This document shows positions 23,303-37,127 of a stretch of 37,127 bases of DNA, piece after piece. Under the pieces are notes generated by a model. That model was not told where the DNA came from and searched no databases. It saw nothing but the letters and a program-made list of their open reading frames with translations. Numbering within the stretch: the first letter of the stretch is position 1; the number at the start of each line of letters is the position of its first letter. Both the position numbers and the translations under genes were made by a program. Source of the DNA: Pseudoxanthomonas koreensis (lineage in GTDB: Bacteria; Pseudomonadota; Gammaproteobacteria; Xanthomonadales; Xanthomonadaceae); contig NZ_PDWM01000032.1 in assembly GCF_010093225.1 (NCBI RefSeq), positions 1-37,127 on the forward strand, written 5' to 3'.

Positions 23303-23438
23303 GCGTCGGCTCCGGTGGGGGCCGCCGCACCCTGGGTATATGGTCCACCCTTCGGACGACATCCTGTCTTTACGATGGGCCGTGGCACATCCATGTGCCA
23401 CTTGGGCCATATACCCAGGGTACGGCGTCCTTCGCGAC
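23303..23438 (-). repeat. GGA-hairpin structured repeat, copy A
   Basis: It fills the gap between zur and the convergent TonB receptor gene. On the minus strand the order is: AAGGA, outer stem (arms at 23407-23420 and 23330-23343, 14 bp perfect, longer with one mismatch), hairpin 1 GTGGCACATGGATGTGCCAC (23382-23401), hairpin 2 GACAGGATGTC (23358-23368), closing outer stem, then CGGCGGCCCCC and CCGGAGCC. The minus strand is also that of the TonB receptor, so the element would lie in that gene's 3' untranslated RNA. It matches the copies at 36771-36908 and 37001-37127. Confidence 0.85.
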
Positions 23439-23469
23439 TTCTGGTTCTTGGCTTCTATCAGCCGCCCGC

Positions 23470-36596: not shown

Positions 36597-36676
36597 TCGA
36601 TCGTTCTCCACGAAGGATGCGCCGATATTAGGTCCTTGTCCTGGATCCGGGGGGCGAAGGGGTGGTGGCAACGGCA

Positions 36677-36763
<87 letters not shown>

Positions 36764-36770
36764 TTGGGTG

Positions 36771-36908
36771 GCGTCGGCTCCGGAGGGGGCCGCCGTTCTG
36801 CCGCACTGGGGGTCGTCGCTCACGTCGGCGTCCTGCCTCAGTTCGCGAGCGCGGCACATCCCTGTGCCGCTCGACCCCCAATGCGACAGAACGACGTCCT
36901 GTCGCGGC
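36771..36908 (-). repeat. GGA-hairpin structured repeat, copy C
   Basis: Read on the minus strand: GACAGGACGTC, outer stem (arms 36891-36872 and 36815-36796; 20 pairs of which two are G-U), hairpin 1 GCGGCACAGGGATGTGCCGC (36851-36870), hairpin 2 GGCAGGACGCC (36827-36837), closing stem, then CGGCGGCCCCC and TCCGGAGCCGAC. The skeleton is that of copies A and B, but the outer stem sequence is entirely different. The minus strand runs toward the amidohydrolase gene. Confidence 0.85.
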
Positions 36909-36960
36909 GTTGGGGTTGTGGCTTCGGTTAGCCCCGCTCTACGAAAGCGCAATACAGCCA

Positions 36961-36980
36961 CGTCCCCACCGTGGGGCTAC
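36961..36980 (-). repeat. Single GTAG-type REP-like hairpin
   Basis: On the minus strand GTAGCCCCACGGTGGGGACG: GTAG then a hairpin CCCCAC/GTGGGG-like stem around CGG. It sits between GGA-element copies C and B. The flanks GTGGCTTC (36918-36925) and GAAGCCAC (36982-36989) are complementary. Confidence 0.6.
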
Positions 36981-37000
36981 AGAAGCCACGCCCTCAAAGT

Positions 37001-37127
37001 TCGCGAAAGGACGCCGTACCTTGGGTATATGGCCCAAGTGGCACATGGATGTGCCACGGCCCTGAGTAAAGACAGGATGTCGTCCCGAAGGGTGGGCCAT
37101 ATACCCAAGGTGCGGCGGCCCCCGCCG
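37001..37127 (+). repeat. GGA-hairpin structured repeat, copy B (reaches window end)
   Basis: Plus strand: GCGAAAGGACGCC, outer stem perfect over 19 bp (37018-37036 with 37093-37111), hairpin 1 GTGGCACATGGATGTGCCAC (37038-37057), hairpin 2 GACAGGATGTC (37071-37081), then GCGGCGGCCCCCGCCG at the edge. It is inverted relative to copies A and C and faces C tail to tail. The outer far end is cut by the window. Confidence 0.85.

Follow-up and report, generated by a model that had tools for sequence, protein, structure and literature searches.

Three copies of a structured repeat in the window, which is the whole stretch of 37,127 nucleotides that was analysed, belong to an interspersed family larger than the one that the preliminary description gave, a family whose module has a long closing stem and, inside it, two hairpins with GGA in their loops. 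On balance, and by a modest lean, we take it to be a dispersed RsmA/CsrA-binding RNA module borne on a mobile-like composite repeat; that degree of confidence is for the putative binding role, and net titration of RsmA is put lower. CsrA/RsmA sponges are known as dedicated sRNA genes, of which a genome has one or a few. If the reading is right, a sponge-like module recurs as interspersed matches, at least 16 to 121 per genome in the four more fully scored Pseudoxanthomonas genomes, mostly as inverted pairs of unlike members, and mobile repeats would be joined to a global regulator with copy number itself a regulatory variable. It would then be possible to study TwoAYGGAY-like RNAs in a tractable host group, and RsmU would be seen in a wider context. 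No earlier description of the module family was found in the open-licence PMC literature.

The module, its fold and its strand

Copies A, B and C were confirmed at the positions first proposed for them, and a covariance model matches all three (Table 1). The letters given earlier for hairpins 1 and 2 are also right, hairpin 1 in B being of the copy A type (GTGGCACA-TGGA-TGTGCCAC), and after hairpin 2 each copy carries GGCGGCCCCC on the GGA strand. C and B together make up a single inverted unit, truncated where the contig ends. Directly outside the outer end of that composite unit comes a run of GGCAAC units (36664-36765), and short simple-sequence runs adjoin the outer ends of copies at three other loci as well (L023, L024, L029).

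Table 1. Positions of the module copies, their hairpins and the associated elements in the window
Feature	Position	Strand	Remark
Copy A, single module	23303..23438	- (GGA strand)	covariance-model match 23307-23431, 132.2 bits
Copy A hairpin 1, GTGGCACA TGGA TGTGCCAC on GGA strand	23382..23401	-	
Copy A hairpin 2, GACAGGATGTC on GGA strand	23358..23368	-	
Inner box GAAGCC	23450..23455	-	24 nt upstream of copy A on GGA strand
Composite inverted unit: module C (-), core, module B (+)	36771..37127	.	cut by contig end
Copy C, type II module	36771..36908	-	model match 36775-36900, 128.2 bits
Copy C hairpin 1, GCGGCACA GGGA TGTGCCGC on GGA strand	36851..36870	-	
Copy C hairpin 2, GGCAGGACGCC on GGA strand	36827..36837	-	
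Core between C and B modules	36909..37007	.	inverted inner boxes GGCTTC 36920, GAAGCC 36982
C/B core: two CTAC ends of GTAG/REP-like sequence	36939, 36977	-	named REP by likeness to the GTAG REPs in the passages of PMC3733652 that describe them
Copy B, type I module, truncated at contig end	37001..37127	+	model match 37008-37127, 135.2 bits
Copy B hairpin 1, GTGGCACATGGATGTGCCAC	37038..37057	+	
Copy B hairpin 2, GACAGGATGTC	37071..37081	+	

What kind of structure is shared? The module, of about 125 nt, consists of a long outer stem and two hairpins, many copies have a GAGU/CCGA internal loop, and the predicted folds are very stable. Covariation of the stems, which had been claimed from the three copies, is borne out both by pair counts against shuffles and by a tree-aware test. 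Among 63 sequences 91.8% of the cells are in standard pairs, compared with 33-46% when the partners are slid; change on both sides has occurred in 29 of 42 pairs, and the cells so changed number 469 against a shuffle mean of 130.5 (sd 11.9), with none of 500 shuffles as high. The weakest covariation measure counts further pair types, and 6 of the 500 shuffles attained its value. The tree-aware test, a simplified and purpose-written one distinct from R-scape itself, was applied to 115 of 227 copies (<93% identity) aligned without structure, and gave 10 of 7626 column pairs at E<0.05, nine of them in the consensus fold and the tenth adjacent to it.

The GGA strand had been proposed as the one that folds, and the outer-stem mismatches agree. 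Read on that strand, G-U pairs outnumber A-C by 106 to 6 in the 88 ungapped of 91 distinct Pseudoxanthomonas stems, and by 21 to 1 in the 14 ungapped of 15 stems from other genera, in a tally of 133 distinct copies whose arms were aligned by identity only and whose gapped stems (3/91 and 1/15) are left out; by distinct 9-nt contexts the figures are 121 and 13, or 89 and 12 without two often repeated positions. The excess of G-U on the GGA strand therefore shows that selection maintains pairing on that strand. RNA fits the polarity best, though folding of single-stranded DNA would leave the same sign. For copy C the preliminary description was correct that the imperfect pairs of the outer stem are G-U on the GGA strand and miscounted them as two, there being three U-G; A and B have one each.

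It is the two hairpin loops, not the outer GGAs, that are the conserved feature. An AGGA at the left edge and a GGA towards the 3' end had been included in the common skeleton, yet of 231 distinct copies just 62 have AGGA within the opening 5 nt of the match and just 62 have GGA within its closing 14 nt, and neither is a feature of the family. The loops themselves are near-invariant, as had been thought: GGA stands in both hairpin windows of 225 of the 231, several GGA motifs in hairpin loops being a trait of RNAs that sequester CsrA/RsmA, and hairpin 1 has CANGGAYG in 220. The SELEX core for CsrA/RsmA is ACARGGAUGU.

Family size and inverted pairs

With R1, a covariance model made from 63 own-genus copies, and 150 of 2832 candidates scored, the own genome gives 72 matches, namely 50 distinct places on the GGA strand (E <= 1.1e-5) and 22 weaker opposite-strand readings of the same places that are left uncounted. 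As several of the 50 places are cut by contig ends, that number is not a count of whole copies, and there are three further partial copies at contig ends. Under the same scoring the closed relative G011 has at least 121 matches, G007 at least 79 and G005 at least 16; the figures are at least 9 for each of two Xanthomonas genomes and at least 10 to 22 for five genomes from other genera. Searched across Lysobacteraceae, as had been proposed, the model finds an interspersed family that includes Xanthomonas, with matches in at least 120 of 395 genomes and at least 17 of 54 genera, lower bounds since at most 8 candidates were scored per genome.

Used as a DNA query, copy A is matched in 15 of the genus's 17 genomes (its own among them) and in no genome of the 24 from outside the genus; in the other two of the 17 no copy was found with that query or in the R1 family search. 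A scan of named records with a pattern made from these copies gave 66 stretches, only from Xanthomonas and Pseudoxanthomonas, and loci of P. kaohsiungensis score like G007 (144.7 and 141.8 bits). Spread beyond the family was considered and rejected, as class-wide R1, which derives from own-genus copies, matches only 2 of 369 genomes, both of the own genus, with at most 9 candidates scored per genome. There was no match to copy A in the plasmid collection, nor to a Xanthomonas copy in the plasmid and phage collections. Eleven copies on G000 contigs reach a contig end or lie within 8 bases of one, and the repeat therefore probably breaks assembly. Three Xanthomonas copies (L134, L137 and L138) adjoin a cobalamin riboswitch, which suggests an inherited orthologous site.

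In Pseudoxanthomonas two unlike modules in inverted orientation form the usual unit, and this, together with the mobile-like behaviour considered below and the lack of conservation of the outer GGAs, is what the preliminary description missed. Set 1, which is the window plus 40 regions chosen for copies (20 from G011 and 20 from G000), has 94 elements in 53 units, 41 pairs and 12 singles; the 94 are from 128 matches, the omitted 34 scoring 32-44 bits and being nearly all opposite-strand readings of the same palindromic places, with one (L266 6248) in a core. Every one of the 41 pairs is inverted, the GGA strands of the two partners facing each other with their 5' ends. The orientation is the same in set 2, some loci of which repeat one genomic place, for 15/15 Pseudoxanthomonas pairs and 6/6 pairs of other genera; the 54 Xanthomonas units there are 42 singles and 12 tandem direct ones. 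G005 has two tandem direct pairs beside inverted ones.

How unlike are the two partners? In G011, 24 of 25 pairs join cluster 1 with cluster 2 or 3, and in the last, where both are of cluster 4, the stems still differ. The 16 pairs of G000 comprise eight of type I with type II, two of other unlike clusters and six within one cluster, the outer arms of these six differing at 3 to 7 of 16 places. When partner outer stems were compared with random pairing, 2 of 2000 pairings were as high for G011 and 307 of 2000 for G000, where partners are not clearly more different. Partner variants go together, and so the pair looks like the spreading unit. The cores between paired modules are of 62 to 408 bp, a GRAGCC box is 23-27 nt upstream in 73 of the 94 elements (shuffled mean 4.05), and many of the longer cores have a GTAG REP-like sequence. 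At L135 a terminator-like hairpin with A and T runs on its flanks makes up the core (1413-1500) that separates two divergent modules, an arrangement that would complicate read-through expression of both modules.

Placement and mobility

Pseudoxanthomonas units are intergenic and downstream of genes. With gene calls from our own codon-usage caller rather than annotation, none of the 53 units overlaps a called gene by >60 nt, and the 51 with both neighbours are in 22 convergent, 28 codirectional and 1 divergent settings, the corresponding numbers for 181 background gaps being 27, 89 and 65. In codirectional settings the GGA strand is sense in 1 of 4 Pseudoxanthomonas singles of set 1, with no clear sense bias, and in set 2, which has some duplicate loci, in 3/5 Pseudoxanthomonas singles, 8/12 Xanthomonas units and 1/3 singles of other genera. 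No promoter-like site near the window copies was found by a sigma-70 consensus scan, which is weak in GC-rich DNA, and one terminator-like site in the C/B unit was taken as chance (0.4 expected, sd 0.7).

The upstream neighbour of copy A is present in all 16 other genomes of the genus and, within flanks of about 1.5 kb, none of the 16 has a module at the orthologous place. In six of these loci (L297, L300, L303, L306, L309 and L311) the two neighbours of copy A are only 39-102 bp apart, and five of the six short gaps fold into other strong GC-rich hairpins.

Could the family be a mobile repeat at the DNA level only, a giant REP-like hairpin dimer or TIR-type repeat read as single-stranded DNA by a transposase, with the loops as its recognition letters? 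We regard this as unlikely, while still deserving a hearing. Passages of PMC3733652 on REP dimers describe inverted and often unlike halves with 3' intergenic placement, and similar behaviour for TIR repeats, and the likeness of the present units to GTAG/CGTC REPs, REPIN/BIME dimers and TIRYT-type TIR repeats extends to the GTAG REP-like cores. The fixed inner box and the lack of a counterpart of copy A in the flanks of the 16 relatives go the same way, and a single-stranded DNA fold would yield strand polarity too. However, REPs and REPINs are GTAG-tagged, RAYT-linked palindromes of 20-40 bp, and the module, at about 125 nt, untagged and with a variable outer stem, departs from them in length and tag, and in its absence from beside Y1 tyrosine transposase genes: flanks of about 1.5 kb around 11 such loci, which come from 6 of 7 genomes, contain no module, one match of 20.7 bits (E 0.014) being seen among them, and G157 has 22 module matches and no Y1 gene. 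An origin from a Y1 transposase or TIRYT is thus not supported within those flanks. Also against a DNA-level role alone are the keeping of loop letters while stem letters have been replaced, and the resemblance, treated below, of partner elements to the CsrA-type RNA clan and of hairpin 2 to a hairpin of RsmU. MITEs are marked by terminal inverted repeats, a target duplication and a matching transposase; what is seen here is similar outer ends and a lineage-specific copy A, and no transposase was found.

RsmA-type RNAs and what the module may do

For the reading that the module is an RNA that binds RsmA, which known RNAs are relevant? A comparison with Rfam and a likeness to TwoAYGGAY had both been put forward. 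At gathering threshold the whole window has no Rfam match. The likeness is supported by sub-threshold matches: TwoAYGGAY (RF01731) gives 42.0, 40.6 and 36.0 bits at three distinct partner-element places, just under its threshold of 43, which was never reached. Two of these coincide with R1 matches on the same strand, and the third is at the partner position of L127, where the fold has two GGA hairpins and R1 finds nothing at E <= 0.01. The search took in 67 locus entries, some repeated, and the remaining entries, among them a set of 18 loci, had no TwoAYGGAY match. Window positions 36700-37127 had none at E <= 10; RsmV came out there only weakly, at 13.4 and 12.4 bits against a threshold of 100, and was outscored by miRNA models. 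Low-scoring matches to miRNA and other Rfam models were taken as chance.

TwoAYGGAY (clan CL00106), which in Rfam shares one clan with rsmX and RsmV, has, as does the module, two GGA-loop hairpins inside an outer stem, with a CAuGGAUG loop in hairpin 1. Where PMC4333381 treats it, it is proposed as a CsrA-binding RNA and tandem GAs are noted in one of its stems, beside which the GAGU/CCGA internal loop of the module may be set by description only. Its entry in PMC2864571 lists human gut, gamma-Proteobacteria and Clostridiales and, unlike what is found for the Pseudoxanthomonas module, does not there list it as a high-copy inverted repeat.

RsmU (sRX061) is a Xanthomonas campestris sRNA from the 3' UTR of comEA which, in the account of it in PMC7694677, binds RsmA by gel shift and co-immunoprecipitation; with four GGA motifs changed RsmA was still bound, in a smaller complex, and the phenotype was kept. 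Its hairpins are therefore not the proven site, and likeness to them is support, not proof. The RsmU region was located in two Xanthomonas genomes by published position, not letters, as the 117 nt that begin 25 nt past the stop codon of the presumed comEA, a frame of 138 residues with an HHH_3 match. It holds GGACAGGATGTCC, which includes the core of the module's hairpin 2 and so lends weight to the RsmA idea, and its terminator hairpin holds GCACTTGGATGTGC. The features in common are GGACAGGATGTCC, a GCAC-TTGGAT-GTGC hairpin and the 3' UTR location; RsmU differs as one comEA-linked sRNA that ends in a terminator and is without the long outer stem. Full membership of RsmU was rejected, as R1 finds no module at the two presumed comEA loci, where its best is 8.5 bits over hairpin 1 positions at one of the two, and only hairpins are common. 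Downstream of the presumed comEA at L332 and L333 the RsmU terminator hairpin has TTGGAT in its loop, and a single hairpin may therefore serve both termination and RsmA binding.

RsmX/RsmV-type and other Csr/Rsm sRNAs, whose GGA hairpins sequester CsrA/RsmA, are products of dedicated sRNA genes. Though the hairpins are alike, none of their models comes near threshold (RsmV 18.7 bits, threshold 100; rsmX 22.3, threshold 56).

How might the module act? A closing stem followed by two tight GGA-loop hairpins would set these at a spacing at which a single RsmA/CsrA dimer could hold the two. The Pseudoxanthomonas module would mostly travel as a composite, two unlike modules inverted and divergent around a core often having GTAG REP-like sequence, inserted between genes and on their downstream side. 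A transcript that reads through from a neighbouring gene across the unit would in its 3' region carry one GGA-strand module, to which RsmA/CsrA may bind, and the copies could jointly take RsmA out of the common pool or direct it to the 3' ends of the transcripts concerned. We infer transcription of the modules, their binding of RsmA and, with less confidence, titration. Against the binding reading is that any transcript of an inverted pair also carries one module as its complement. The lack of a clear sense bias and of promoter-like sites near the window copies also counts against it, as do the binding that RsmU kept after four GGAs had been changed, the failure of RsmU to match R1, the sub-threshold TwoAYGGAY scores and the two genomes of the genus in which no copy was found. 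A more ambitious proposal, put forward tentatively and with doubt outweighing belief, is of a mobile composite repeat with an RsmA-binding site as cargo, such that tens to >100 putative modules per genome, with unlike modules facing outward, would constitute a distributed sponge and RsmA activity would be partly set by copy number and by read-through at gene ends.

A branch of the favoured RsmA-binding reading, not exclusive of the rest of it, is that RsmA is recruited in cis to individual mRNAs instead of being titrated; little probability is accorded to this, and a fixed regulon in particular is unlikely because copy A is lineage-specific and the neighbours differ between copies. Least probable is a 3'-end structure that protects or ends neighbouring mRNAs, like REP/BIME and without an RsmA role, for which the very stable folds, the siting between convergent (22/51) or codirectional (28/51) genes and the other hairpins in 5/6 short orthologous gaps at the place of copy A would be apt, but which leaves unexplained the near-invariant GGA loops and, because either strand would serve, the one-strand G-U polarity.

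The putative ligand of the module is encoded throughout the genus, with a csrA match in 17/17 genomes and one in the own genome; 15 of the 17 have one, and G007 has three CsrA-family matches.
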